Virus record (IMG/VR): IMGVR_UViG_3300014962_000004
Coordinates: 80,292-102,511 of that record
Length of the DNA stretch: 22,220 nt
Reading direction: 5' to 3' (one strand)
DNA from: a virus
How positions within the stretch are numbered: position 1 is the stretch's first letter; the number at the start of each line of letters is the position of its first letter. Shown in pieces: positions 1,149 through 15,182 of this stretch. Made by a program: the position numbers and the translations under genes. Under the pieces are notes generated by a model. It did no database searches, was not told the origin of the DNA, and was given only the letters and a program-made list of their open reading frames with translations.

Positions 1149-1172
1149 ACGATTGATTTACCCAGGAAAAGC

Positions 1173-1211
1173 GGAAGCGGGCCTGTCACTCGAAAGGACA
1201 GACCCGCTTCC
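1173..1211 (-). terminator. Strong hairpin terminator ending the late/structural run
   Basis: The inverted repeat GGAAGCGGG-C-CTGTC (1173-1187) pairs with GACAG-A-CCCGCTTCC (1197-1211), giving 9 + 5 base pairs around one mismatch with a 9-base loop. On the minus strand the stem is followed directly by GCTTTTCC, a short T-run. It lies about 95 bases after the stop of the coiled-coil gene and before the next small gene, where a terminator for the long minus-strand transcript would be expected. Confidence 0.75.
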
Positions 1212-1304
1212 AGGGAGAAGAGGGGCGACACTCACGGGCCGCTGCTCAATCCTCCCTACCTCCACCCACTGGAGGAAAGGTCACCCACCACAGGCAACCA
1301 GTAG
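1212..1304. other. Short 3' untranslated gap with a small hairpin
   Basis: No gene is seen between the terminator and the stop codon of the coiled-coil gene. A perfect 6-bp inverted repeat, CCTCCA/TGGAGG (1259-1264 and 1270-1275), could form a small hairpin in the 3' end of the transcript. It has no T-run. Confidence 0.3.
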
Positions 1305-1790
1305 TTACTCTACGGGAGCGCTACCGGTTTCGTCGACGGAGGGGGCCGGGGTGTCAACGACTGTGTCGGAAGTCACCGGAGCGTTCTGCAGCGAATCGAC
1401 GACGGCGTTGATCTGAGCCGCGACCTTGTCCTGCAAATCCGAGATCTCGGCCTGCAGGGCGGCGATGGCAGCCTTGTCGGCGGCATCGTCGGACAGCGCC
1501 GCATCGAGCGCGGCCTGCAGCTCGGCGAGCTTGCCGGTCTGGGTGTCGTTGGTTTCCTTGGCGCTGGTCAGCTGCGCGACCACATCCTTGACGAACGCGG
1601 TGAAACGGGCGAGAGCATCATCGAGAGCGGACACGATTCCTCCTAGAAAACCGAGCAGGGTTACACCCTTTCGGGTCGGATCCGCCGGGTTTGACAGGCC
1701 GTCATCGCTGCGCAATCCCGAGAACAGGTAAACGACCAAAATCAGCCAAAGGGTCAGCACGACGACGGTAGTGGTGGCTTCAAATCCCAT
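1305..1790 (-). CDS. Membrane-anchored coiled-coil protein, possible dual start
   Basis: The 161-residue product starts at ATG 1790-1788 behind GAGGGGAA. Residues about 7-26 (TTVVVLTLWLILVVYLFSGL) form one hydrophobic membrane segment. Residues about 55-135 are an alanine-rich heptad-like helix (LAELQAALDAALSDD, AALQAEISDLQDKVAAQ). The last 25 residues are rich in P, V, S and T and probably disordered. It could be a virion- or membrane-anchored spacer; a holin-like role is possible but unsupported, because there is only one membrane segment and no lysis gene nearby. A perfect internal Shine-Dalgarno, AGGAGGA (1638-1644), precedes an in-frame GTG (1634-1632). That start would yield a second, soluble 109-residue form lacking the membrane segment. 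The gene follows the ART-ParB gene with a 9-base gap and is the last before the terminator. Confidence 0.75.
   Translation of the reverse strand: MGFEATTTVVVLTLWLILVVYLFSGLRSDDGLSNPADPTRKGVTLLGFLGGIVSALDDALARFTAFVKDVVAQLTSAKETNDTQTGKLAELQAALDAALSDDAADKAAIAALQAEISDLQDKVAAQINAVVDSLQNAPVTSDTVVDTPAPSVDETGSAPVE
1632..1644 (-). promoter_or_regulatory. Internal Shine-Dalgarno and in-frame GTG start
   Basis: On the minus strand AGGAGGA (1644-1638) is followed after 3 bases by GTG (1634-1632), in frame with the coiled-coil gene. This is one of the strongest ribosome binding sites in the window, although the spacing is short. It would initiate a form starting at residue 53, just after the membrane segment and its loop. 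It may instead simply encode the residues L-G-G-I-V. Confidence 0.4.
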
Positions 1791-1799
1791 TATTTCCCC

Positions 1800-3344
1800 T
1801 CACGACCAAAACGACTTTAGGTGCTGACGATTCTTGTCAATCCAATCGCCCAGAACGGGTTCCAGCGGCACCGGCTTGCTGTAGGACTCGTTGGTCATCA
1901 CCTCGCCGGGTTTCTCCATGAACACCTGCACCGGGACGTGGGAGATGCCGAGCTGGCGGGCCACGTTGAGCCGGTGGTTGCCCTCGATCATCAGCGCGTG
2001 GGTGCCGTCGGTGGAGATCTTCAGCGGCTGCCGGATGCCCTGGTCGGCGATCACCCGTTTGAGCATCTGGGTGTTCTCGTTGTCGGGCCGGTCGTACTCG
2101 CGGTAGTGGTGGGCGATGTCGGTCGGCAGCATCAGGTGGGGCTTGAGCGAGTCCGGCAAGTTGGGGCTGCCCGGCGGGTAGTTCTCGTAGGTGTCCCGCA
2201 GGTGCTGCTCAAGGCTCTTCTCGGCGGTGATCGGGCGGGGGATGGCGTTGGCGAGCTTGCCGACGGTCTCCCGGCCCTGGCGCATGTCGGTCAGCCAGTT
2301 CTTGAGCCACGGTTCGATCTTGCTTTCGTAGGCCCCGTCGTCGTAGCCGGTGGAGTTGCGCCAGGACACCACCACCGGGACGTGGGTGTGGCCGAGCTGG
2401 CGGGCAATGTCGATGCGGTGGTGGCCGTCGTAGATAGCCCCGGACTTGCCGTCGGTGGCCAGCTCGACCGGGTTCTCGTAGCCATTGTCTTTGATCTGCT
2501 GGCTCAGCGGAGGCCGTCCGCTCATCTCGTACAGCGGGGCCTTTTCGTCGCCGAAGCCTTCGCCCTTGCGATCCATGTAATGGCTGATCACGTCAAGCGG
2601 GAAGTAGTCGCCGCCGATATGCTGCCAGTCCTGGTTGAACCGGCGCGGCTTAGCGGCGGTGTACTGGGCTGGGGTGTCAAACTCGTGAGTCTTCCAAGTC
2701 TTCAAGACAGGATGGTAGATATGCACCCGCTTGACGTTCGTGGGCGCACCCGGCAGCAATCGCTGCTCAGCCTCCCATTTGATCTGCTCGTCAGACAAAC
2801 CTTCTTCGGCGAGGGTGTGGGTGTGCGGGTCAACTCTGACGCCTCTGGGGTGTTCAGCCTCCATCACCACGCCAAGATTGTTCGGCAGCAACGTGGCGGC
2901 GGCTTTGGCGACTTCGGGATCGGTAGTCCAGTGGGGGCCAAGTCCTTCCCCCTGCGGGACGTACTTGTTGTTAATGTCCTGATCACGACCGGGAAGATTG
3001 TGATGCCATTTCAGCTGGCCGGGCTTGTTAATCCAGTCGACCACCTGACGGGCTTCATCGTCGGTGAGATGCCGGGGGCCGGGCTTGGGGGCTTGCAGCC
3101 GCCCGTATCCTGCCGGGCCAAACACATCAGACCTGTCGTTGTTGGTCGGCCTGCCGTACAACGACCACCCAATCTGTTCCAATCCTGGCTCGCCGGGATC
3201 AACGCGCAAACCCCTGTATAGCGTTTCGTTGTCAGGCGGGGCTACCGGCTGGGGTTCGGGCATCCCCGGTAGCGTTTGCTGCTCGGCGGTGCGCCAGGGC
3301 GACAGCATCTCGACCTGATCGCGGGCCGAGACGATGCGCCTCAT
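1800..3344 (-). CDS. ADP-ribosyltransferase-like / double ParB-like fusion with shared N-terminal tag
   Basis: I place the start at ATG 3344-3342, which overlaps the previous gene's TGA (ATGA), giving 514 residues. The longer frame to 3422 would lie inside the upstream gene and displace the tag. Residues 1-17 are MRRIVSARDQVEMLSPW, the tag shared with the two upstream genes. Residues about 40-210 fit an R-S-E type ADP-ribosyltransferase: YRG with R44, HWTTD at 138-142, then E191-A-E193 followed by LLPG. Residues about 245-330 and 400-475 are two ParB/sulfiredoxin-like units, each with a signature loop (DGHHR 306-310; EGNHR 454-458) followed by ARQLG and a short VPV strand. Known ParB-fold domains act as CTPases or nucleases, and ARTs modify proteins or nucleic acids with NAD. 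ART and ParB domains are both reported in phage polyvalent proteins. Roles as host-takeover or genome-protection effectors are inferred. Confidence 0.8.
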   Translation of the reverse strand: MRRIVSARDQVEMLSPWRTAEQQTLPGMPEPQPVAPPDNETLYRGLRVDPGEPGLEQIGWSLYGRPTNNDRSDVFGPAGYGRLQAPKPGPRHLTDDEARQVVDWINKPGQLKWHHNLPGRDQDINNKYVPQGEGLGPHWTTDPEVAKAAATLLPNNLGVVMEAEHPRGVRVDPHTHTLAEEGLSDEQIKWEAEQRLLPGAPTNVKRVHIYHPVLKTWKTHEFDTPAQYTAAKPRRFNQDWQHIGGDYFPLDVISHYMDRKGEGFGDEKAPLYEMSGRPPLSQQIKDNGYENPVELATDGKSGAIYDGHHRIDIARQLGHTHVPVVVSWRNSTGYDDGAYESKIEPWLKNWLTDMRQGRETVGKLANAIPRPITAEKSLEQHLRDTYENYPPGSPNLPDSLKPHLMLPTDIAHHYREYDRPDNENTQMLKRVIADQGIRQPLKISTDGTHALMIEGNHRLNVARQLGISHVPVQVFMEKPGEVMTNESYSKPVPLEPVLGDWIDKNRQHLKSFWS

Positions 3345-4237
3345 GATCGCCGCGCGGATCTCGCTCCGCTGGCGGGCGCGTGGCGCGGCAGGTTGGCCAG
3401 ATCCAGCGAGCGGTCGTCCCAATGCTCCGGCGGCAACAAGCCGACCTTCTGCGGCCCGAAATGCCCGTTGAGGATCAGGCTAGCGTTCTGCCCCTTGGTC
3501 TCGCTGGCCAGTGCGGCCCGCGCAGCCGGGCTGAACATCAGCGAGTGCGCCAGGTAGGTGGCCTGCTCGCCGTGCCGGTCGAACGACCTGCCGGTGGCGG
3601 CGTGCCCGAAGAAGTCGTGCACCGCCCGGAACTGATCGTTCTCCCGATTGCTCAGGTACGGATGTCCGCCGGTGACGTGGGTGCCCAGCACCTTGAGCCG
3701 CTTGTTGTTGTTGATGTCGTCCATCAACTCGTTCACGTCGTGGTACGGATCGTGATCGACGGTCTCGGTATGGATTCCGAGCCGGTTGGTCAGGAAGTCG
3801 TGCTGCTGCGCGATCTCGCGACGAAACGCGTCGTAGTTGCCCTCGGCTTTGTGGTCGTAGTCCGGCATCGCGTCGTACAGCCGCCCCACGGTTCGCACCT
3901 GCTCCGGACTGGTGGTGACGTGGGTGTAGTCGTACTGGTGCGGATCCGGCAGACCGACCTGTCCGGCGTAAGCCCGCGCGCCGGTGATCGCCAGCCCAGA
4001 CGGGGTGAACGTGATGTGTCGCTGCCAGCCCGCCGGGTCGAGCAGCCGTGTTTCCTGCGTGCGCGGGTCGGCGACCGCCAGGTGTGCGGTCGGCAGTCGT
4101 CGTCCGCCGGTGGTGTGCGCGACACCGTGCAGGCGGCGCGATTCTTCGAGATCCGCGTGGCAATGCCCGCAGGCGGTGACAATCCACGGGGACAGCATTT
4201 CCTGCTGCTCCCGCGCGGTGACAATACGCTTGGCCAC
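3341..4237 (-). CDS. HDFFGH-motif phage protein with shared N-terminal tag
   Basis: The start is GTG 4237-4235 with GGGGAG upstream, inside the end of the 1199-codon gene's tail region; the product is 298 residues. It begins with the shared tag (MAKRIVTAREQQEMLSPW). Next comes C23-G-H-C26-H, which could bind metal. The core is residues 195-255: an END-F-R-A-V-H207-D-F-F-G-H212 block, then HGE224, A-H231, and SE246-T-K-G-Q-N. The spacing of His and Glu residues suggests a metal-dependent hydrolase or a structural metal site, but no catalytic activity is established. I recall similar motifs in many uncharacterised phage proteins; that is memory, not a search result. It overlaps the downstream ART-ParB start by 4 bases, which indicates translational coupling and a shared programme. 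Confidence 0.75.
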   Translation of the reverse strand: MAKRIVTAREQQEMLSPWIVTACGHCHADLEESRRLHGVAHTTGGRRLPTAHLAVADPRTQETRLLDPAGWQRHITFTPSGLAITGARAYAGQVGLPDPHQYDYTHVTTSPEQVRTVGRLYDAMPDYDHKAEGNYDAFRREIAQQHDFLTNRLGIHTETVDHDPYHDVNELMDDINNNKRLKVLGTHVTGGHPYLSNRENDQFRAVHDFFGHAATGRSFDRHGEQATYLAHSLMFSPAARAALASETKGQNASLILNGHFGPQKVGLLPPEHWDDRSLDLANLPRHAPASGARSARRS

Positions 4238-4241
4238 GGGT

Positions 4242-7200
4242 TTACTCCCCGTAGCCGAAGAGATCTAGGTGGGCTGCTCGTCGGGCGTACTCGTCGGGGT
4301 CTCCAACGGAGGCAGCCCGGCTGCCGCCCGCAGGATAGCCACCACCCGATCCGGGTCGTTCTTGGGCAGCAGGTGATACTGCGGTTGATCCTTGGGCACG
4401 ATTCCTCGATCCGAGCACGCCAGGGTGGCCGGTCAGGGCACCGGCCTCTTCGGTATACATGGTACGCCCGTTATTGAGGTCGTAAATGCCCAGCTGCTTG
4501 TTGCGCACCGCCTCGGCGGTCGCCCGGTTCAGATCCGGGATGTGCTTGGAAACGTCTAGGTAGAAGTTTCCGTTTTCCAGCCAGCCGCCCAAATAGTGGT
4601 GGGGCCTTTCCAGCGCCTCGGCGTTCTTTATGACGAAATCCCGGACGTGCTCGGGGGTCAGCTCCTCCATCGGGCGCTTGAATTCCTGGTCTTTGGCGAG
4701 GCTGACCATGTACCCCTGCTTCGGGCCATCGCCGACGTGGTCGTGCAGAGTGAAGCCGCCCTTGTGGGCCGCGTCCATCACGTCGCCCATCCACTGCTTG
4801 TCCATGACCGGAATGGCGATCTTGACACCCGCCGCGTGAGCAGCGGCGTGATCGTGCATGATCTGAGCGGCAGATTCCGGATCCCAGTGAGGCAGAAGAA
4901 CATAGATCGCCGACGGAGACGGGGCAGCCTGTCGCGTCAGCGAGCCGGTCACCCGCAGCGCCTCGTCCACGCTGGCCAGCAATGCCGCGCCAAATTCGCG
5001 CGGATCCAATGCGTCGGTGTCCGGATCCCAGCCGTGCATGTCCTGATGAGATTGCTCGGCTGCGGCCTGCGCCAACTCGAATGACGGGGCCAGGCCGGAA
5101 TTGACGGTGCCCGCATCGGCAATCGAGTGCCGCCACTCGAAGTGCGGATTCCCGGAATGGTACTCACCGTCCTGTTCACCCCACGGGTAGCGCACCGCCA
5201 GCTGGCAGCCGTCCGGCAACATCGCCTGAGCGTAGTGAGCGCCCATTTGCCAAGGAACAGTTTCCGCAGCCAGTCGCCTACGAGATTCCTTGCCGAAAAT
5301 ATCGCCGTAGTCATCGCTGAGGGGATCGTTGTTGTGGAAGAACTGAGAGTAATCCACCCCGGAATCGTGTGACCCGGTACCAGGCCCGCCGATGGGGAAC
5401 ATTTTCTTGTATGCCTCTTGGGCCTGATGCTTGGCCTCATCCAGGGTGTGGATGTGATCGCCGTGCAGCACGCTGTCCTCGCCCTCACGCGCGGTCTCCT
5501 GGGCATCCCGACCACCAGCGGCTAGCCAATGATACTCGTCCGGAGCGCCGTAACCGGCCAGTTCGGGGTGGCCGTAATCGTCAGGGTCGTCGTATTTGGC
5601 GATGGCCCAGTTCCAGCCGGGCTGAGCTTCGGGGCTGGTGTATTGCCAAGCGTGCAGTTCGTGACCGTTCTCCAGTGTGGCCTTGTGGAATTCCAAGTCG
5701 GGAACGTCGATATGCCGTTGCCAATCAAACGCAAATTTCACAAAAGCGGTGCGCTGCAGCGCATCCCACACTGCCGCCAGCAGTGGGTCGTAAGAACCCT
5801 TGCGCTTGATCATGTGGCTCGGCGTGAAACCGTAACCAGGCATCTGCTGAATCGGAACGTAATTGTCGTCCCCCGGCCTTGGCAGGCGGGGGTCGAAATG
5901 CCACGGCTCCCCTGCCTCATTGCGGTGGTCGTAGCGATACCTGCGGAACCAGCGAGGATCCAGGGGATGGTCTTCTATCCAGCTTTCTTCCGACCAGTTA
6001 GGGTCGTCCGGATCCCAGCTTTTCGGAGGCATGCCCGGCTCGGGCCATGACTTGTTCTTGGCCTCGTCCAAGTCGCGCTTAAAGCCATTCCAGGTCAGGC
6101 TCTGCCCCTGCTTAGGAACCATGTGCTTCAGCTCGTCCGGCTGCATGGCGTTGAGGATGCGGCGCGCTTCCCAGCTGGAACGCACCATCATGTTGTAACC
6201 GGGTTCCAGCTCGATTCCCTTGCCTGGCTGCACGCGGTGATGCCACTGAGGGTCATGGCCGAGTTCAGTGAGCCGCTGGTGATAATCTTCGTTGGATTCG
6301 TCCTCTCCCTGCTTGGGCGGGAGAAGAGCCTTGCCGGGGCGCACAAAGCCCTTCGGGTCCATCGTGGGAGAAAAACCAGCATCTTGCAGCCGCTTAAAAT
6401 AATCCTCGTGCGACTCGTCCGCCGCTGAAGTCGGATCTTTCGGATCCCGACGCATGCGGGCCGGGGGTTTGATCGGAGACCCAATCACCCTGCTGACCAT
6501 TGTGGGCGACATGCCCAAAGACTTCAGCCGGTCGTGGTAGTCCTGGGCCGATTCCCTGCGCCCCTGTTCCGGAGTCCAAGTGAGTTTCTGGGCAAATTGC
6601 ACCGGAACGCCGTAGCTTAGACCCCGCAGCCGTTCCAGGTACGTCTCTCGGTCTTCGCCGGGCTGCTGCGGGGTGGTGTGCGCCATCCGCACGTCGTGGG
6701 TGTCGCTGGTGTGGTTCTGGTCGCTGTGCAGTCGCCAATCCCGCTCCCCGGTGTAGGGGTTAATTGACATTTGGTAGTAGCCGTAATCGTCCTTGATCCC
6801 TGGACGCGGCTCCCGCTCCGGAGTCTTGTCGGTAAGATTGATGGCGAAATTCTTGGTCTTCTCGCCAGAGTTGACTTTCTGAAATTCCCCGTCCGGCAAG
6901 CTATAGATGAGCTTGGATTTTGCCGCCGGACTTTTGGAAAGGCCGGGAAATTCTGGATCCGGGAATCCGGGGTCGTCATCGCCAATGCCGGGGCCGACTC
7001 CGGAGGGGCGATGGTTCAGAACCCAGTGCCAGCCCTTCTCCATGTTTTCGTCCCACCGGGTGCGCGGAGACCAGGCCGAAATAGTGTGGGTAACCCGCTC
7101 GTGATCGCCGTGGGTCTTCTCGGCGAGGTTTTTGGTCTCTTCGTGGCCAACGCGGTACCAGGACCGGTAGATCTGGTCGTCATCGTGAACATTCAGTTCA

Positions 7201-7841
7201 TGTCCGACCCGGTTGGCAACCAGCTCTGTGGGCGAGACGTTGGGCTGCCACCCTTGGTCGGTTACGTCGATGGTGTTCTTGGCACGCCAGCGCCCATCCC
7301 GATCCAGCGGCACCCCACGCTTGTTGGTGAGGATGTTGCCATCCTCGTCGCGCGGGATTCCGTTGGGGTAGTGGATGATCTTGTGCGGCGGAGTCTGCAC
7401 GCCCCACGGGTCATTGATCGGGTCGGCGCTTTCCCTGGCCTGCTGGATCCATGACTTGAGGTGGTAGTCGGTGACCTCGCCGGTCCGCTGATTAGTGATG
7501 CGAACGACGCGCGGGGACCGGTGGTCAGGGTTGCTGCGGCGCAGCACTTCGCTGGGGTGCGGAATGTCGGAAACCAGCGGAGGCCGAACAGTGGAATGAA
7601 AGGCCAGGCCGTCGGTGGCGTTACGCCAGTCCGGGTGTTTTACCCAGTCTCCTTCGGGAATGGTTGGGGTCGGAGCCTGTGGAATGACCGGTGCCGGTCC
7701 AGACGTGGGCCTGCCTGGGGGTGGGGTGGCCGAAGGGGACATCGGCAGCCCAGCGCCGGGGGTGATGTCGCCAGGAGCGGCGGTAAGGAGCCACGGGGCA
7801 TGTAGTTCGATCTGCTCGCGAGCAGAAACAACACGGCGCAT
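4242..7841 (-). CDS. Large multi-domain polyvalent-type protein with shared N-terminal tag (1199 aa)
   Basis: The start is ATG 7841-7839 with Shine-Dalgarno AAGGAGG (7850-7856), buried in a hairpin. Residues 1-17 are the tag MRRVVSAREQIELHAPW. A proline-rich linker follows (about 30-65). Residues about 205-275 contain NRVGHELN and SAWSPRTRWDENMEKG, a helical domain resembling the 'ALSPQxxW' region I recall from phage proteins. Residues 395-531 hold four copies of an E-S-x-E-D-Y-x-x-R-L-x-x-L-G-x-S-P-T-M-like repeat. Residues about 720-815 and 870-935 look like two copies of a W-x-W/G-x-A-x-S-x-x-x-A small beta-alpha domain. Residues about 978-1125 form a C-terminal domain with HDH, LHDHVGDG and YLGGWLENGNFYLDVS. 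The tail is Gly/Ser-rich. No single known enzyme is recognised. Its modular build, size and neighbours fit a virion-delivered polyvalent protein (inference). Confidence 0.8.
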   Translation of the reverse strand: MRRVVSAREQIELHAPWLLTAAPGDITPGAGLPMSPSATPPPGRPTSGPAPVIPQAPTPTIPEGDWVKHPDWRNATDGLAFHSTVRPPLVSDIPHPSEVLRRSNPDHRSPRVVRITNQRTGEVTDYHLKSWIQQARESADPINDPWGVQTPPHKIIHYPNGIPRDEDGNILTNKRGVPLDRDGRWRAKNTIDVTDQGWQPNVSPTELVANRVGHELNVHDDDQIYRSWYRVGHEETKNLAEKTHGDHERVTHTISAWSPRTRWDENMEKGWHWVLNHRPSGVGPGIGDDDPGFPDPEFPGLSKSPAAKSKLIYSLPDGEFQKVNSGEKTKNFAINLTDKTPEREPRPGIKDDYGYYQMSINPYTGERDWRLHSDQNHTSDTHDVRMAHTTPQQPGEDRETYLERLRGLSYGVPVQFAQKLTWTPEQGRRESAQDYHDRLKSLGMSPTMVSRVIGSPIKPPARMRRDPKDPTSAADESHEDYFKRLQDAGFSPTMDPKGFVRPGKALLPPKQGEDESNEDYHQRLTELGHDPQWHHRVQPGKGIELEPGYNMMVRSSWEARRILNAMQPDELKHMVPKQGQSLTWNGFKRDLDEAKNKSWPEPGMPPKSWDPDDPNWSEESWIEDHPLDPRWFRRYRYDHRNEAGEPWHFDPRLPRPGDDNYVPIQQMPGYGFTPSHMIKRKGSYDPLLAAVWDALQRTAFVKFAFDWQRHIDVPDLEFHKATLENGHELHAWQYTSPEAQPGWNWAIAKYDDPDDYGHPELAGYGAPDEYHWLAAGGRDAQETAREGEDSVLHGDHIHTLDEAKHQAQEAYKKMFPIGGPGTGSHDSGVDYSQFFHNNDPLSDDYGDIFGKESRRRLAAETVPWQMGAHYAQAMLPDGCQLAVRYPWGEQDGEYHSGNPHFEWRHSIADAGTVNSGLAPSFELAQAAAEQSHQDMHGWDPDTDALDPREFGAALLASVDEALRVTGSLTRQAAPSPSAIYVLLPHWDPESAAQIMHDHAAAHAAGVKIAIPVMDKQWMGDVMDAAHKGGFTLHDHVGDGPKQGYMVSLAKDQEFKRPMEELTPEHVRDFVIKNAEALERPHHYLGGWLENGNFYLDVSKHIPDLNRATAEAVRNKQLGIYDLNNGRTMYTEEAGALTGHPGVLGSRNRAQGSTAVSPAAQERPGSGGGYPAGGSRAASVGDPDEYARRAAHLDLFGYGE
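6248..6661 (-). repeat. Four degenerate repeats inside the 1199-aa protein
   Basis: Residues 395-413, 427-448, 473-494 and 512-531 each contain an acidic, tyrosine-containing helix of the form E-[ST]-x-[EQ]-[DT]-Y-x-x-R-L, then a turn (SLGMSPTM, DAGFSPTM, ELGHDP). The key tyrosines are 34, 46 and 39 residues apart. The copies are divergent, so this is an old protein-level repeat rather than a recent DNA duplication. It may form a helical spacer or a repeated binding surface. Confidence 0.65.
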
Positions 7842-7885: not shown

Positions 7886-8386
7886 TTACAGGACTACGTC
7901 TCCGGTGCTGCCAGTGCTGCCGGTGTCGCCACCCGCAGCGGCAGTATCGCCGGTGGCTCCAGTCGCTCCGGTGTCGCCGCCGGTGGCTCCGGTGGCTCCG
8001 GTGGGCGGCTCTGTGGATCCAGTCGCGCCGGTCGCACCAGAGGTGGCATCGGGAACGGGAGTTTCGTCCGGGAACGGCGGCGGCGGCAGCGGCGAGGGGT
8101 CCGGCGACGGGGCGGGGAAAATTTCCGGTTCGGAAATTACAACCGGCTCCGGGGCCGGGTCGGGGGCGGCTTCACGCAGCACCTCACGAACGCCGAGGAT
8201 GACGTTGGCCAGCGCATTGGCGCGGGCATCATCCTGCGCTTGCTGCTCCTGGATTTCGGCTTCGGTCTGGGCGTTTTCGATGGCGGCACGAACTTGCGCA
8301 GCCATTTCGGGATTTTGCGCGATAACGTCCAGGGCGGCGCTCATCTTCGCCTGCAACTCGGCAAATACTTCATCAAATCTAGCCAT
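7886..8386 (-). CDS. Coiled-coil / proline-rich / collagen-like virion protein
   Basis: The start is ATG 8386-8384. The Shine-Dalgarno AGGAGA overlaps the TAG of the giant LamG gene, so the two are closely coupled. The product is 166 residues. Residues 1-75 are a long amphipathic helix (ELQAKMSAALDVIAQNPEM, IENAQTEAEIQEQQAQDD). Residues about 75-115 are proline-rich. The last 50 residues are collagen-like Gly-X-Y tracts dominated by G-A-T and G-S-T (GATGATG, GDTGATGATGD). Collagen-like triplets in phage proteins usually form trimeric stalks in fibres. A trimeric fibre accessory, tip or spacer attached to the adhesins is the best guess. Alternatively it may be a tail-fibre chaperone, which is less likely given the repeats. 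Confidence 0.75.
   Translation of the reverse strand: MARFDEVFAELQAKMSAALDVIAQNPEMAAQVRAAIENAQTEAEIQEQQAQDDARANALANVILGVREVLREAAPDPAPEPVVISEPEIFPAPSPDPSPLPPPPFPDETPVPDATSGATGATGSTEPPTGATGATGGDTGATGATGDTAAAGGDTGSTGSTGDVVL
7889..8038 (-). repeat. Collagen-like Gly-Ala-Thr triplet tract
   Basis: The last 50 codons of the coiled-coil/collagen-like gene are dominated by repeated G-A-T/G-S-T triplets. They are encoded by near-identical 9-base units, seen on the plus strand as repeated 'ggtggctcc'/'ggtcgcacc' type blocks. Such tracts can lengthen or shorten by strand slippage. Confidence 0.6.
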
Positions 8387-8398
8387 GATCAGTTTCTC

Positions 8399-11300
8399 CT
8401 ATTTCATTGGGAAGGGTTCGGAAGGAACGGTGAAGTTGGCGGTGTAGCGACCCACCCGGCTGACCCGCAACCCCTCGATGTAACTGTTGATCCGGTATTC
8501 GGTAGTGCTGTTGTAGTAAGAGTTTCCTAACTGTGGTCGGCCCGCTCCACACAGGTAGGAGTTGGTGTCGGCATAGGTACCGCCAACCTGGGTGCCGTTG
8601 ACGAAGAGCCGGGTCTGGCTGTTGGCACGGCTCACCGCGATGTGATACCACGTCGAAGCGGAGAGAGTGCCGCCGTTAATCTGATTCCCACCGCCGACGT
8701 AGTAGTACAAGGTTGCGTTCTCGCAGTAGATGGTGGGGTATGCGCCCTGCGTGGTGTAGGGCCGCTGATCGTAGAACACTTCCTGGTTCTGGGTGTTGCG
8801 GTACAGCCAGAACTCAATGGTGAAGTCGCCAGCACCGAAGGCAAAATGACTGGTTACGGGAACGGGATTAATAGACGTATTGTCTGTACCGTTAAACGCC
8901 AAAGTGGCGATTTCGTATTTGCTGCGTGTGCTGCTGGTTGCAGTAGCTCCCCTAGTCAGAATGTTCTGTCTGCCGGTCGCGTCGTACACCCCGGCGTTGT
9001 CGAAGTTCAGCAGCAGGCTGGTGCCGCTGATCGCGGTGACCGGTGAGGTTGGGGGCGTGAAGGCGGCGGTGTAGACGGCAGTGTTGGTGACCCTGATGTT
9101 GGCGGCGTGGCCAATGAAATAACCGCCCGCGCCGACTTCCGACCCGACATAGAACGGAGAGGCGGCTGGCGTGGTCAGGTTGTTGTTTGTCGTCGTGGAA
9201 CCGACCGAAACGCCGTTGAGGTACAAGGTGGTGGTGCCGCTGTTTCTAACCAACGCGACGTGCGCCCAGGTGTTGAGAATCATGGGTGCTGATGCGCTGA
9301 TGAGAACGGCATCGTTGTTTCGGTAAGTCAGGTAGCCGGTGTCGCTGACGTTCAGAGCCACATCGTTGGTGGTTCCGGTGCCGAAAGACCACAGCCTCTG
9401 GTAGTAGGTCGTCCGAATAGTGAAATCCTGGAAGTTCCACCATCCCTCGATGGTGAAATTGCCGGTGCCGATGTTGGTCAGATACCCGGTCGGGCACATG
9501 AGGTAGTCGCCCGAACCGTCAAAGTATCCGCTGCCGCCGTAGGTGTAGGTGGCCCTCTTGGTCGTCGGGAACGGGGAGAGGTCGCTGGTGGCCCTGGCAT
9601 CCCCGGTGCGGGTGATGGCGTAGCCGTTGGCGCTCGCGTCGATAAGGGACGATGACTGAGCGGTCAGGAACGTGGTGCCGCTGATCGCGGTCAGCGCCGA
9701 GGTGGGCGGCGTGAAATTAGCCGTGTAGAGAGCCGTCCCCTTGATCACCCGCAGGTTGGAGATGTAGCCGGTCAGGTACTCCTGGTCGTAAGTGACGATC
9801 CGACCGAACTGCAATCCGCCGTTGAACCCGCTGGGAACGTAGGTGGTCGTGCCGACGTTCGTGCCGTTGTGGTACAGCGTGAGGGTGCCGCCGTTTCGCA
9901 CCAGCGCGATGTGGTGCCAGGTGTTGAACGCCAGCGTGTTGGTGCTCTGAATGGTGGGGGTGGCGTACCACCCGGAGCCGTTGCCGATGAAGACGCATGT
10001 TTTTCCGGTGCCGCCTCGGTTGAGGCTGACGGCGATGGTGTTGTGCGGCGCGAAGTTCACGAACGTCTGGTCGCTGGCGGTGCCGGTGAGGGACACCCAG
10101 CCCTCGACGGTAAAGTCGCCGTCCAGCACCAGTCCGGTGCCGCCGCTGGTGGTGCAGTAGTCCCCGACACCGTCAAAGTAGACGCTGCCCGGACTGCTGG
10201 TCGTGGCGACGGTAGTGACCGGCGGGGCGAACGGGAACGGGGAGGATCGGGCGATCTCGGGACTGCCGTTGCGGGTCAGGGCGAAATTGTTGGTGGAGCG
10301 GTCGATGAACCTGTTGTCCTGGCAGGCCAGCAGGGACGTGCCGGTGATCGCCGTCAGGGGCGAGGTCGGCGGGGTGAAGTTGGCGGTGTAGAGGGCGGTG
10401 CCCTTGACCACGCGGAGGTTGGAGATGTGCGACGTGCCGGTCGTGTAACCGTCGGCGTAGCCGCCGATGTGGAACGGAACGCCGGTGGGCAAGTACGAAC
10501 CCGAATAGGTGGATGATCCGACGAGGATGCCGTTCAGGAACAGTCGGAACGTGGACCCCTGCCGGGTGACGGCGACGTGGTGCCACACCCCCAACTGCGC
10601 GTTGCAGGCGTAGTTGCCGGTGAGAGAGGTCATCCCGTAGGTGCCGTCGAACCCTATCGCCGTGCTGCTGAGTCCCACGGCGAACCGCGCCGTCCCACCG
10701 CCGTCCCAGTGGCAGAACAGGGTCGTGCTGTTCCCCCAGGTGAGCGGCATGATCCACCCCTCGATGGTGAAGTCGCCGGTGCCGTGTTCAAACGCGGTGC
10801 TGGACGCGGCGGTGATCCTGTTCGACCCGCCGAGGTTCGCACCGGACCAGTAACCGCTCGGGATGTACGGCGACAGGCTCCCCTGCGTCACGTCGCCGTA
10901 GCGCACCGGCAGGAAGTTGTTGGCCGAGTCGTCGCGGAACACGTTGTTGGTCGCTCCGGGGAGGTCGATGGTCTTTACCTGCAAGGCGTTGGACGTGTAG
11001 AACGTGTCGTTGTAGGGCGGCTCCCAGTCCTTGCTGTAGGGCGTGGGGCTGACGGTGAAATTGCCGGTGTAGCGTGCCGACCTGGTGACCCGGAGTTCAG
11101 CAATCTGCCCGACGTATCCGTAGGCGTTGTCGGCCACGCTGCGCCCCACGGCGGCGGTGGACTCGGACAGGTTGGTGGTGTTCGCCGCCGAGCCGACGCA
11201 CATCCCGTTGATGTAGAGGTAGATCACCCCGTTGGCGCGGACGCACGCGACGTGCGACCAGGTGTTGGCGGCGACGGCGACGTTGGAGGTGACCTGCCAG

Positions 11301-13714
11301 GCGCTGGCCGTGTAGAAGCCGAGGGTGTAGGCGTTGGTGTAATGGCCAAAGTAGATGGCGTTGGCCTGCGCGCCTCGGGTGGAGAAGATGCAACGGTCAC
11401 CGCTGCTGCTGGTGGGGTATATCCACGCTTCGATGGTGAAGTCACCGGTGCCGAACGCGAAATCCGAGGACAGGGTTCCCGAAGTGGCCCGCGCCAGTTG
11501 AGAACCGTTCAGCGACAGCGCAGATCCGGCGAGCATCGCCGGGGTGGGCGTGATGGTCGCGTTGTTGGCGAGATTGTTGCGCCCGGTCGCGTCCCAGGTG
11601 TCGACGACCTGATCGAGCAGCAGGATGGTGTTTTTGGTCGGGGTGTGCGGCGCGGTGCTGGGGGTGAAGTTGGCGGTGTACCGAGCCGCGCGCTCGATCC
11701 GCAGATTGGACACCAGCCCGCCGAAGGTGCTGTTGGTTGTCGCGTCACCGGGCACCGAAAGGAAAGACGTGCCTGATCCCTGGTTGAAGACGGTGGTTGT
11801 TGAGTAGGTGCCTTCTGCAACGCCGTTGACGTAGAGCGTGATCACCCCGTTGCTTCGCACCGCCGCCAGGTGCGTCCACTGGTTGTAAACGATGTCGCTC
11901 TTGCTGGTGATGACCGCGTCGGTGGCGTTGAGGCCGATGGTGTATTTCGTGGGGGTGGAGTTGTGCCCGATGAACAACCCGAAGCAGCCAGTGGCCCAGG
12001 ACGTGTAATTGCACCACATGACGGGATAAGCGCCGACTTTGGCTATGGGGTAGACCCAGCCCTCCACGGTGAAGTCGCCGCCGCCCAGATAGCCAGACGG
12101 CGCGGAGGCCGACAGGTAGTCCCCGTTGACGGCGAACCCGACGTTGGTGAGTTCGGTGGACGGAGCCAAGTACCCCCGCGAGGTGGTCGCCCCATACTGC
12201 CGGATCACTGACGCGAGGCCGCTGGTGTCGCGGTAGGCGGCGTTGGTGAAATTCAGCAGCAGGCTGGTGCCCGACACGGCGCTGACCGGGCCGGTCGGCG
12301 GCGTGAAGTTGGCGGTGTAGACAGCGGTGCCTGCCACCAGTCTGATGTTCGCCATGTAGCCGGTGAGCGACCTGGCCCCGCCGGGGTAGTACGGATAGTA
12401 CCCGGCGTAGAACCCGCCACTGGGCGAATAGATGCTGGCGGCACCGACGTTGGTGGAGCCGATGGAAACACCGTTGGCGTACAACGTGATTGTCACGCCG
12501 TTGCGCACCAGGGCAAAGTGGGTCCAGGCGTTGACCGTGGGCAAGTAGGTGGTGGCGATGGAATACGCCCAACTTCCAGCGCCCGTTGAGAAATAGCAGT
12601 AGACGTAGTTGTTGGTCTCGGTGGTGATGATCCACCCCTGCGCGTCCCCGGTGCCGGTGTTGCACATGATCGGCTGGTAGCCGATGGAATTGGTGGTGAA
12701 GTATTGCCAGCACTCCGCCGTGAAGTTCTGGTTGGTGAAATTGGCGACGGCGTTGGGGGCTGAGAGGTAGTCACCTGAACCGTCGAAGCACGCACTGCCG
12801 CCACTGGCGGCGCTCCACGTCCAGGCGAACGGGGCGAACCGGGACACCGCCACGTCGCCGGTCTTGGTGATGGACAGCGCATTGGCCGAGTTGTCCTTGA
12901 ACCTGTTGTCCTGGCAAGTCAGCAAGATGGTTCCGGTGATTGCCGTCAAGGGCGCGGTCGGCGGCGTGAAACCCGACGTGTAGACAGCGGTTCCAGCGAC
13001 GACGCGGAGGTTGGAAATGTATCCGTTGAAGTAACCGGAGGAGATGGAGTCGCCCGCCACGCCGATCCACGACGTGTTGGCCTGGTTGAGGGTGGCGGTG
13101 CTGGCAAAGGTTCCGTTGGCGACGCCGTTGACGTAGAGCGTAATGGTGCCGCCGCTGCGCACAACCGCGAGGTGCGTCCACTGGTTGTAGATGATGTCGG
13201 CGGTTGACTGGATGGCCGGAAAGGTTCCGTTGCAAGAGACCTGATATTTCGCAGTGTTGGCACTGCCGTGCCCGGCGAACAGCGCCAACGACCCCGCGCC
13301 CCAGGTGCTGTAGTTACCCCAGACTGTCGGGTATGTGCTGACGCGGGCCGTCGGGTACACCCAGACCTCGACGGTGAAATCCCCAGAGCCGAGTTGGCCG
13401 GACGGCGAAGGGGCGGTCAGGTAGTCGCCGCTGCCGTCAAAGTAGGCCGACCAGTACGGCGCGTAGGGGGTGGCGGTGGTCTGGATCGTGTCGCCAGCGC
13501 GGGTGACCGTGACGTTGGCGGGAGACGAGTCGATGAAGGTATCGGCGGCTGTTGAAGTTGTCTTGAGCAGCAGGCGGGTGTTCGACCACTGGGGGTCATA
13601 GCCCGGCCATGCCGAAGCGCGGTTGGCGGCGTTCTGCTCGCGCAGGCTCCACACCCCCTTAGCCGACGTGGTGGCCGGGAGGTTGGATTTTCCGATGATG
13701 TTCCCCTGACCCAT
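8399..13714 (-). CDS. Giant tandem LamG (concanavalin A-like) adhesin, 8 units, 1771 aa
   Basis: The start ATG 13714-13712 overlaps the previous TGA (TGATG), and the gene ends TAG 8401-8399. After an 88-residue N-terminal region containing KGVWSLREQ, the protein has eight LamG/concanavalin A-like jelly-roll units. They begin near bases 13450, 12797, 12136, 11517, 10835, 10187, 9530 and 8905. A typical unit runs: YFDGSGDYL; GDFT[VI]E[GV]W[VI]; W[TH]H[LIV]A[VL]VR with a following LYVNG; G[YF]ISNLR[VI]; then [ARV]YTANFTPPT. Most linkers share a pattern like LLxCQDNRFxDxSxN. LamG folds commonly bind glycans, so this is probably a long tail fibre or virion adhesin for host surface recognition. No catalytic site or intramolecular chaperone was seen. 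The last unit ends at the C-terminus without a linker. Confidence 0.9.
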   Translation of the reverse strand: MGQGNIIGKSNLPATTSAKGVWSLREQNAANRASAWPGYDPQWSNTRLLLKTTSTAADTFIDSSPANVTVTRAGDTIQTTATPYAPYWSAYFDGSGDYLTAPSPSGQLGSGDFTVEVWVYPTARVSTYPTVWGNYSTWGAGSLALFAGHGSANTAKYQVSCNGTFPAIQSTADIIYNQWTHLAVVRSGGTITLYVNGVANGTFASTATLNQANTSWIGVAGDSISSGYFNGYISNLRVVAGTAVYTSGFTPPTAPLTAITGTILLTCQDNRFKDNSANALSITKTGDVAVSRFAPFAWTWSAASGGSACFDGSGDYLSAPNAVANFTNQNFTAECWQYFTTNSIGYQPIMCNTGTGDAQGWIITTETNNYVYCYFSTGAGSWAYSIATTYLPTVNAWTHFALVRNGVTITLYANGVSIGSTNVGAASIYSPSGGFYAGYYPYYPGGARSLTGYMANIRLVAGTAVYTANFTPPTGPVSAVSGTSLLLNFTNAAYRDTSGLASVIRQYGATTSRGYLAPSTELTNVGFAVNGDYLSASAPSGYLGGGDFTVEGWVYPIAKVGAYPVMWCNYTSWATGCFGLFIGHNSTPTKYTIGLNATDAVITSKSDIVYNQWTHLAAVRSNGVITLYVNGVAEGTYSTTTVFNQGSGTSFLSVPGDATTNSTFGGLVSNLRIERAARYTANFTPSTAPHTPTKNTILLLDQVVDTWDATGRNNLANNATITPTPAMLAGSALSLNGSQLARATSGTLSSDFAFGTGDFTIEAWIYPTSSSGDRCIFSTRGAQANAIYFGHYTNAYTLGFYTASAWQVTSNVAVAANTWSHVACVRANGVIYLYINGMCVGSAANTTNLSESTAAVGRSVADNAYGYVGQIAELRVTRSARYTGNFTVSPTPYSKDWEPPYNDTFYTSNALQVKTIDLPGATNNVFRDDSANNFLPVRYGDVTQGSLSPYIPSGYWSGANLGGSNRITAASSTAFEHGTGDFTIEGWIMPLTWGNSTTLFCHWDGGGTARFAVGLSSTAIGFDGTYGMTSLTGNYACNAQLGVWHHVAVTRQGSTFRLFLNGILVGSSTYSGSYLPTGVPFHIGGYADGYTTGTSHISNLRVVKGTALYTANFTPPTSPLTAITGTSLLACQDNRFIDRSTNNFALTRNGSPEIARSSPFPFAPPVTTVATTSSPGSVYFDGVGDYCTTSGGTGLVLDGDFTVEGWVSLTGTASDQTFVNFAPHNTIAVSLNRGGTGKTCVFIGNGSGWYATPTIQSTNTLAFNTWHHIALVRNGGTLTLYHNGTNVGTTTYVPSGFNGGLQFGRIVTYDQEYLTGYISNLRVIKGTALYTANFTPPTSALTAISGTTFLTAQSSSLIDASANGYAITRTGDARATSDLSPFPTTKRATYTYGGSGYFDGSGDYLMCPTGYLTNIGTGNFTIEGWWNFQDFTIRTTYYQRLWSFGTGTTNDVALNVSDTGYLTYRNNDAVLISASAPMILNTWAHVALVRNSGTTTLYLNGVSVGSTTTNNNLTTPAASPFYVGSEVGAGGYFIGHAANIRVTNTAVYTAAFTPPTSPVTAISGTSLLLNFDNAGVYDATGRQNILTRGATATSSTRSKYEIATLAFNGTDNTSINPVPVTSHFAFGAGDFTIEFWLYRNTQNQEVFYDQRPYTTQGAYPTIYCENATLYYYVGGGNQINGGTLSASTWYHIAVSRANSQTRLFVNGTQVGGTYADTNSYLCGAGRPQLGNSYYNSTTEYRINSYIEGLRVSRVGRYTANFTVPSEPFPMK
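8402..13450 (-). repeat. Eight ~650-bp tandem LamG-encoding units
   Basis: Unit starts are about 653, 661, 619, 682, 648, 657 and 625 bases apart. Conserved segments at both protein and DNA level recur in each unit, for example the DNA for TANFTPPT and for SNLRV (seen on the plus strand as 'ggaggttggagatgt'-like blocks). The units are divergent enough to be distinct domains but similar enough to allow unequal recombination. Confidence 0.85.
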
Positions 13715-14448
13715 CAGAGACCAAACCTTGTTTTCTGCGCGTCGTAATTCTGCTGAATTTCAGTGATGGATAAAGCGCGGTTGTAAACCCGGCAAATTGC
13801 TATCCCGCCGTTGTATCGGTAATCCCATCCGCCCCCGTCAAAATAAGCGCCTAAATCTACGCCTCTACCATTGGTGGCGATGGTGCCGGACAAGCTATCA
13901 GAAGCCACCAAAGTGGCATTGCGATAAATCCTCCGCCCGGTTCCGCTGGCGTAAGTTGCCGTTATGTGATTCCAACTGGTGGTGGATACACCGGCTGCAG
14001 ATTCCGTCACGGTGAGGTCGACCAGCGATCCGCCGACCACCATGCGCCAGTAAATGTATCCATTGGCGGTAAAGATTTCATATTGCTGATTGACGATTCC
14101 TTTTTCAAACCAGAAATATGGTTGACCAAGGTAAGTGGGTTTAACCCAGAGTTCCACAGTGGGTGTTTGGGTGTCCAAGACGGTGTTGTTGGGAAATGCC
14201 GCATAGCTCAGGGTGGTAGCCGTCGTGCCAGTTCCGGCAAAGGACATATAGCCGCCGTTGGCGGAATTGTAAGTCACATTACTGAGCGTCCCGGCAGATA
14301 TTGTTCCGGACAGGTCGGTCCAGGTGGTGCCGCTGCCGGGGTAAGAAGCTGGGTTACCCGCATCGACGTGCATGATCAGGCCGTTAGTGACAATGTTGGG
14401 GCCACTCATCTTGGAGTCATACGCCGCGCCCAGGCTCCACACGCCCAT
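13714..14448 (-). CDS. Single-domain LamG-like tail fibre protein (first tandem paralogue)
   Basis: The product is 244 residues, starting at ATG 14448-14446, which overlaps the upstream stop (TGATG). It opens with MGVWSL, the same short motif found near residue 20 of the giant adhesin. It then has TNGLIMHVDAGNPASYPGSG and TTWTDLSG, a LamG core with PTVELWVKP and SWNHITATY, and the ending VYNRALSITEIQQNYDAQK followed by TRFGL. This order matches the next gene upstream, so the two are tandem paralogues. The DNA is more AT-rich than its neighbours (24 GC of 60 at 14101-14160), suggesting a separate origin. A glycan-binding fibre tip is likely. Confidence 0.8.
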   Translation of the reverse strand: MGVWSLGAAYDSKMSGPNIVTNGLIMHVDAGNPASYPGSGTTWTDLSGTISAGTLSNVTYNSANGGYMSFAGTGTTATTLSYAAFPNNTVLDTQTPTVELWVKPTYLGQPYFWFEKGIVNQQYEIFTANGYIYWRMVVGGSLVDLTVTESAAGVSTTSWNHITATYASGTGRRIYRNATLVASDSLSGTIATNGRGVDLGAYFDGGGWDYRYNGGIAICRVYNRALSITEIQQNYDAQKTRFGL

Positions 14449-15182
14449 CAGATGCCGTACCTGGACTTGAAGAAGTTGTAGTTCTGCGCGATCTCGGCGG
14501 CGGTCAAGCCCCGGTTGTAGATCATCACGACGTTCATGGAGGTCTGGAACAGCGCGTCGGCCCAGTTGCTCTTGCCGATGTAATTATTGGCGCGGGTCAC
14601 TGTGGGCGGCACGGCGGTGAGGCTGACCGTGTTCAGGAGGTTGCCGTTACGGTACGCCGTCCCGGTGGTGCCGTTGAGGGCGACGGCGTACTGGGCGGTG
14701 GTGTTGTTGACAATCCCATTGGCTGTGGACACGGTGCCCGTCAGGGTGCCGCCGTTGAACATCTGGAACTCCAAAGTGTCCGAAGTCCCGTTGCGGCCCA
14801 GAAAGATGTTGCTGGCGTATGAGCCGTTCCCGAAATCCATGATCCGTTCCCAGGTGCTGGCAGCGCCGAAGTTCACGATGGCAAAGATCGTGATGCCGTT
14901 CGTCCAGGTGCCGAAACCGGAAGGCAGCGACACGTAGTCGTCGGATCCGTCGAAGACCAGGGTGCCGCCATTGGCGCTGCTGTAGGACACCCCATTGAGA
15001 AGCGTGCCGTGATTGCCGTTGCCGGACAGGTCGGTCCAGGTAGTGCCGGTGCCGGGGTAGGAAAGCCGGTCGCCCGCGTCCAGGTACAGCAGCAGTCCGT
15101 TGGTGGCGAGAGTGATGCCCTCCCCGAACGTGGCTTTGCGCCCGATGTACCCGCCGTTGTCGAAAACCGTCGTTCTCGCCAT
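14448..15182 (-). CDS. Single-domain LamG-like tail fibre protein (second tandem paralogue)
   Basis: The product is 244 residues from ATG 15182-15180, three bases after the previous gene. The ribosome binding site is only modest (GAAGAA), so coupling to the upstream gene is likely. The sequence has TNGLLLYLDAGDRLSYPGTG, TTWTDLSGNGNHGTL, a jelly-roll core (FDGSDDYVSLPSG, ITIFAIVNF) and the ending IYNRGLTAAEIAQNYNFFK followed by SRYGI. The DAG...SYPG...WTDLSGNGNHG signature and the NY-x3-K-[ST]-R-[YF]-G-[IL] ending match the following paralogue. I recall this C-terminal motif from many phage LamG proteins. Probable carbohydrate-binding tail protein. Confidence 0.8.
   Translation of the reverse strand: MARTTVFDNGGYIGRKATFGEGITLATNGLLLYLDAGDRLSYPGTGTTWTDLSGNGNHGTLLNGVSYSSANGGTLVFDGSDDYVSLPSGFGTWTNGITIFAIVNFGAASTWERIMDFGNGSYASNIFLGRNGTSDTLEFQMFNGGTLTGTVSTANGIVNNTTAQYAVALNGTTGTAYRNGNLLNTVSLTAVPPTVTRANNYIGKSNWADALFQTSMNVVMIYNRGLTAAEIAQNYNFFKSRYGI

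Follow-up and report, generated by a model that had tools for sequence, protein, structure and literature searches.

A movable N-terminal leader on unrelated phage proteins: a probable capsid-targeting sequence

The IP proteins and Alt of phage T4 enter the prohead by way of an N-terminal capsid targeting sequence (CTS) of 10-20 residues, which is later removed (PMC9958956, PMC7411985). For DarB of phage P1, the N-terminal 30 residues are enough for the loading of a reporter, and no common sequence is found among the other Dar proteins (PMC9024508). Polyvalent proteins, whose ParB-like, GNAT, ART and metallopeptidase-like domains are encoded among virion genes, are predicted to be injected (Iyer et al. 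2017). Finally, the head proteins of the giant phage SPN3US have N-terminal propeptides that are proposed to target the prohead.

The AREQ-PW tag described here, a peptide at the start of three adjacent proteins of a metagenomic virus, resembles each of these systems in part. Like the T4 CTS (of IPI, IPII, IPIII and Alt), it is a short N-terminal leader on several different cargoes in phages that encode a prohead protease, a likeness of architecture; among the T4 cargo, at least one protein, Alt, modifies the host. In T4, gp21 cuts the leader off and its targeting is proven by fusion, whereas the AREQ-PW leader is known from sequence alone; it also precedes many more types of body and has a conserved P-W end. 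The resemblance to DarB is that of an N-terminal signal on a large anti-restriction polyvalent protein, but the Dar proteins lack a consensus where all AREQ-PW cargo shares a strict one. The domain kinds listed for polyvalent proteins recur here, and the fold of one tagged protein matches proteins named as polyvalent-associated; the AREQ-PW cargo, in contrast, consists of separate genes under a common leader, and a keyword search of Iyer et al. (2017) finds no such leader there. The SPN3US propeptides differ from the tag in their length of 111-130 residues and in being cleaved after a T4-like motif.

The DNA analysed (the window, 22,220 nucleotides) is positions 80,292-102,511 of a 150,100-bp IMG/VR virus record. 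Its three tagged ORFs are consecutive, all on the minus strand, and encode proteins of 1199 aa (4242-7841, ATG start), 298 aa (3341-4237, GTG start) and 514 aa (1800-3344, ATG start). A gap of 4 bp separates the first from the second, and an ATGA overlap joins the stop of the second to the start of the third. They are the only tagged ORFs in the whole record. The final gene in the run, at 1305-1790 (minus), is an untagged ORF of 161 aa with a hydrophobic N-terminus followed by coiled-coil-like sequence. Beyond it, a strong hairpin at 1172-1212 (minus strand; MFE -35.3 kcal/mol, z -5.9) probably marks the end of the transcript or gene run, although it is absent from the list returned by a pattern scan for terminators. 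Directly upstream of the tagged genes lies a 166-aa ORF with collagen-like GAT repeats (7886-8386, minus), preceded by ORFs of 1771, 244 and 244 aa (8399-15182, minus) that are apparently tail fibre or spike proteins, the largest of them with many LamG-like repeat units (TANFTPPTxPLTAIxGTxLL).

The shared core is 16 residues long: RRVVSAREQIELHAPW in the 1199-aa protein (7791-7838; profile score 44-47 bits), KRIVTAREQQEMLSPW in the 298-aa protein (4184-4231; 50-52 bits) and RRIVSARDQVEMLSPW in the 514-aa protein (3294-3341; 50-51 bits), all on the minus strand, with the consensus [RK]R[IV]V[ST]AR[ED]QxExxxPW. A first profile of 16 columns, built from four tags, three of them the window's own, scored the window tags at 47-52 bits, against no more than 16 bits in 20 shuffled sequences. 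This confirms the observation with which a preliminary description of this DNA began, that three consecutive ORFs open with one peptide; since the window tags trained the profile, independent support comes from recurrence in other phages. A refined profile places the window tags at 44-50 bits and finds many more phage ORFs at 28-52 bits.

Pattern and similarity searches together collected 43 distinct tagged ORFs from phage and metagenome sequences, the tag being N-terminal in each and followed by differing bodies. A start codon, ATG or GTG, precedes the tag by 0-4 codons in every one of the 43, so that this short leader occupies the extreme N-terminus, as do those of the T4 and P1 kind. Conservation begins at the start codon and fades by about residue 21-22; the fuller leader of 17-20 residues reads M-(R)-R-R-[IV]-V-[TS]-A-R-[ED]-Q-x-E-[ML]-L-x-P-W-R-x-A, with a variable stretch after it. 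Positions 6, 7, 9, 15 and 16 of the tag are nearly fixed as A, R, Q, P and W, but these are the very positions fixed in the tag-derived pattern with which the sample was partly gathered; conservation at these columns is therefore inflated, and the facts of position alone are free of this bias. The tag does not recur inside any tagged protein (the best internal score is 5 bits), nor is a cleavage site evident in it. In an AF2 model, residues 8-22 form a helix, predicted with low confidence, that stands clear of the folded body; the beginning [ST]-A-R-[ED] is a typical helix capping box. Resemblances of the tag to the N-termini of the capsid protein (score 9) and of a minor capsid protein were considered and lie within noise.

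The tag is carried by Bxz1-like and Myrna-like Mycobacterium phages, by Gordonia phages Skog and Pupper and by about a dozen metagenomic phage contigs: a family of large viruses of soil bacteria. Searched alone by tblastn, it retrieves 200 phage records, 194 of Mycobacterium/Mycolicibacterium and 6 of Gordonia phages; two pattern scans of 84,980 bacterial and archaeal genomes, one per species, found it neither in these nor in their prophages. Many genomes or contigs have 2-4 tagged ORFs with differing bodies, so that a single phage places one leader on several unrelated cargo proteins, as expected of a capsid targeting sequence. In the three genomes that were completely scanned (the window's own, Drazdys and Skog), all seven full tags and one partial tag map to the late head-tail region, in the stretch from the major capsid protein to the tail sheath. 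Skog gp164 (L001:17747-19849), a homologue of the DUF7178 type, retains RRIVTAREQ, the first half of the tag, and diverges after it. The preliminary description knew of no named account of this tag, and the open-access literature searched yields none, the search by letters being swamped by unrelated words.

What follows the tag is varied. Compared without it by single-linkage blastp, the bodies fall into 10 groups; in two of these, several domains are merged. The 1199-aa protein matches phrog_2878 over residues 2-426 (E 4e-75), DUF7178 (PF23802) at residues 226-339 (window 6825-7166, minus; E 6e-7, 30 bits, above the cut-off of 27) and, at residues 1011-1146 (window 4404-4811, minus), the C-terminal part of phrog_3170 (positions 289-430; E 7e-16) and phrog_17808. 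This C-terminal domain is shared with E3 gp68 (43% by tblastn), and gp105-type proteins of Mycobacterium phages end in it too. In the 298-aa protein, a phrog_3170 domain forms the body (E 1e-104; 63% identity to Skog gp165). The 514-aa protein matches phrog_3147 (E 2e-44) and has two ParB-like modules, with many ParB-like PHROGs at residues 280-326 and 419-475 and Pfam ParB_N below its cut-off only; it has only two relatives in viral contigs, which align mainly via the tag. Elsewhere, DUF7178 bodies occur in many other tagged proteins, a phrog_2579 (ParB C-terminal type) body in Skog and, by annotation, probably also in Pupper, and phrog_5931 is another tagged body. GNAT acetyltransferase domains exceed Pfam cut-offs in at least five tagged proteins; a 1019-aa tagged protein gives several GNAT matches and weak Arr-type ADP-ribosyltransferase and SprT-like matches, and at locus L021 several GNATs lie above the cut-off and the Arr-ART and SprT matches below it. 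An ADP-ribosyltransferase domain is possibly among the tagged bodies. As in polyvalent proteins, domains of disparate activity are combined and encoded beside virion genes, the 1199-aa protein joining DUF7178, the phrog_3170-type C-terminal domain and others.

These bodies are too diverse for the tag to be confined to one homologous full-length family. The stronger statement of the preliminary description, that the three bodies in the window are unrelated, agrees with the 10 groups but needs qualifying: Mycobacterium phages fuse a 298-aa-type body to the C-terminal domain of the 1199-aa protein (phrog_3170), and whole domains are thus shuffled or traded between tagged proteins. Two window bodies also have untagged relatives, in Rhodococcus phage E3 (gp205) and in Drazdys (gp83, a ParB homologue). 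The body of E3 gp205 is about 60% identical, with some 60 unrelated residues in place of the tag region, so that the tag stands out as a sharply bounded module; at the same time, related bodies without a tag mean that it is not the sole route, or is not always needed.

Three independent sequence links support an association of tagged-type bodies with the virion head. E3 gp205, in which a phrog_3170 body and DUF7178 are combined without a tag, is labelled 'structural protein' in its record; the label presumably derives from the virion proteomics of E3 that Salifu and colleagues reportedly carried out in 2013, a study cited in PMC7150772. In two metagenomic phages (L057 and L059), an N-terminal protease of the head maturation family (phrog_18299, E about 1e-19), which has homologues in Drazdys (gp97) and in E3 (gp77, named 'prohead protease'), is followed by a phrog_3170 body and then by a DUF7178-type domain (phrog_3842 in both, Pfam DUF7178 in L057); at a third, L058, tblastn detects protease and phrog_3170 body. 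The third link is the joint tagging, in another phage lineage considered below, of such a body and a head-morphogenesis protein. Through these homologues (the E3 label, the protease fusions and the head-morphogenesis relatives) the AREQ-PW cargo would be placed in the virion head. The tagged phages themselves encode a phrog_18299-family (head maturation) protease. In Drazdys it is part of a polyprotein whose C-terminal portion is a putative scaffold, judging by its fusion to the protease; segment 960-1170 of this polyprotein, the one candidate for a receptor of the tag, is detected in tagged genomes and missed in E3 by filtered tblastn, an unfiltered blastp giving E 1e-6, probably from biased composition.

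The structure predicted for the 298-aa protein (AF2, mean pLDDT 84) matches viral proteins named head morphogenesis, ART-PolyVal-like and large polyvalent protein associated; no solved structure matches the body at E<=0.001. Residues 207-246 include an invariant HDxFGH, with an invariant Glu and His nearby, and recall the metal site of aromatic amino acid hydroxylases. The fold comparison gives this resemblance no significant support, the repeated matches being insignificant (TM about 0.15); that they coincide with the conserved HxxxxH of the body is a weak lead. The model of DUF7178 (pLDDT 53) is too poor for use.

Outside the phages with the AREQ-PW tag, too, the phrog_3170 body is common, and a blind search for shared N-terminal segments at such loci brought two other tags to light, KHxxHDQxTHGxWA and KGDxxGHxFxGNQ, each shared by several neighbouring proteins. 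Both also occur at domain junctions inside long proteins, with 408 and 252 distinct copies, respectively, in the fetched loci, and the letters of neither were found in the open-access literature searched. At one locus (L085), KHxxHDQxTHGxWA precedes two ADP-ribosyltransferases (PF03496, E 2e-20), one of which also matches Alt-like PHROGs, as well as a weakly SprT-like protein, a phrog_3170 protein and a head-morphogenesis protein (phrog_7625). At L085, L087, L097, L101 and many other IMG/VR loci, the slightly looser motif KHxxHDQx[ST]HGxWA is seen at the starts of adjacent proteins and at internal domain junctions. KGDxxGHxFxGNQ, seen at L064, L075, L077 and others, reaches 7 copies per ORF, and weakly HipA/PI3K-like kinase bodies are among its carriers. 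Three unrelated short sequences around the same cargo thus appear in one architectural role.

The tag is, we think, probably a lineage-specific capsid-targeting sequence comparable with the leaders of T4 IPIII and P1 DarB. The sequences show a shared, movable leader, conserved as a peptide, on unrelated, putatively head-linked effectors; its place at the extreme N-terminus, the many types of cargo behind one leader, the head links of that cargo and the presence of a protease-family gene together fit a capsid-targeting sequence best. Gene shuffling sets the effector domains behind the one conserved leader. We infer that the cargo, made alongside other late proteins, is then enclosed when the leader, whose [ST]-A-R-[ED] start probably caps a short helix, binds the prohead core, where the protease-scaffold polyprotein would be its most likely partner. 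The head maturation protease may cut the leader off, and the cargo (ParB-like, GNAT, DUF7178, phrog_3170 and similar) would be ejected with the DNA, at once shielding it or modifying host proteins. The preliminary description had proposed that the tag is a common address and the bodies its cargo: the movable N-terminal module on polyvalent-type, putatively head-linked bodies speaks for this, and the loading of particles is our extrapolation, as are cleavage and injection. That interpretation is plausible and strengthened, and it is partly supported rather than proven.

Other explanations must be set against this one. It is unlikely, though worth keeping in mind, that the leader is a processing signal, perhaps the site at which the head maturation protease recognises its substrates, with loading determined by other parts of the protein. 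The phages do encode a protease of the appropriate family, and the analogous tags of other lineages lie, up to 7 to an ORF, at inter-domain junctions of polyproteins, as cleavage sites would; but the AREQ-PW tag does not occur internally, not even where several domains are joined, as in the 1199- and 1019-aa proteins, and it is not obvious why unrelated proteins should have a leader cut off that had done nothing beforehand. In T4, moreover, a single leader holds both roles. The position of the tagged genes between head and tail genes might suggest that the leader tethers cargo to the portal, neck or tail tube, from where it would leave together with the DNA. This seems improbable, because the sequence links are to a head maturation protease and head morphogenesis proteins and not to tail proteins, and because the leaders of T4 and P1 do their work in the head, precedents that speak for loading as the prohead is assembled rather than docking for injection.

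We give equally little credence to a shared cytoplasmic interaction motif, for one host protein, say, or for mutual assembly of phage proteins. It draws on the fact that the tagged proteins are known here from their genes and not from particles, but those genes lie among late structural genes and their homologues are head-linked. That the likeness reflects a DNA or mRNA element, such as a translation start or recombination site, or mere chance is hardly credible. Strong conservation does set in at the start codon and is lost by residue 22 or so, but within-genome pairs of tags differ by 3-9 synonymous codons, such variation separates even two protein-identical tags on one contig, and A, R, P, T and L are each specified by several codons. 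Selection therefore acts on the peptide and not on the DNA, which rules out a DNA-level element; tag scores far above those of shuffled sequences dispose of chance.

If the tag is indeed a capsid-targeting sequence, a 17-residue profile predicts which proteins of these phages travel in the particle, a question that is now answered by proteomics only, and 'hypothetical proteins' in about 200 sequenced Mycobacterium phage records become candidate injected effectors; the tag might also serve as a loading signal with which proteins of choice could be carried into mycobacteria. Leader-coded loading of cargo, established by fusion in T4 and P1, would then recur in several phage lineages with unrelated codes. 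The chances seem to us about even that tailed phages in general rely on short address peptides specific to the lineage, AREQ-PW, KHxxHDQxTHGxWA and KGDxxGHxFxGNQ among them, to recruit interchangeable sets of effectors into the head, with effectors moving between particle-loading systems by a swap of leader or by direct fusion to a head protease. A further repeated N-terminus was seen at L043:15250-17277 (record positions 75,550-77,577, minus), where three consecutive ORFs begin with MS[KR]HLMA[RK][FM]R; these resemble a segment within the 1199-aa protein, at about residues 800-870.
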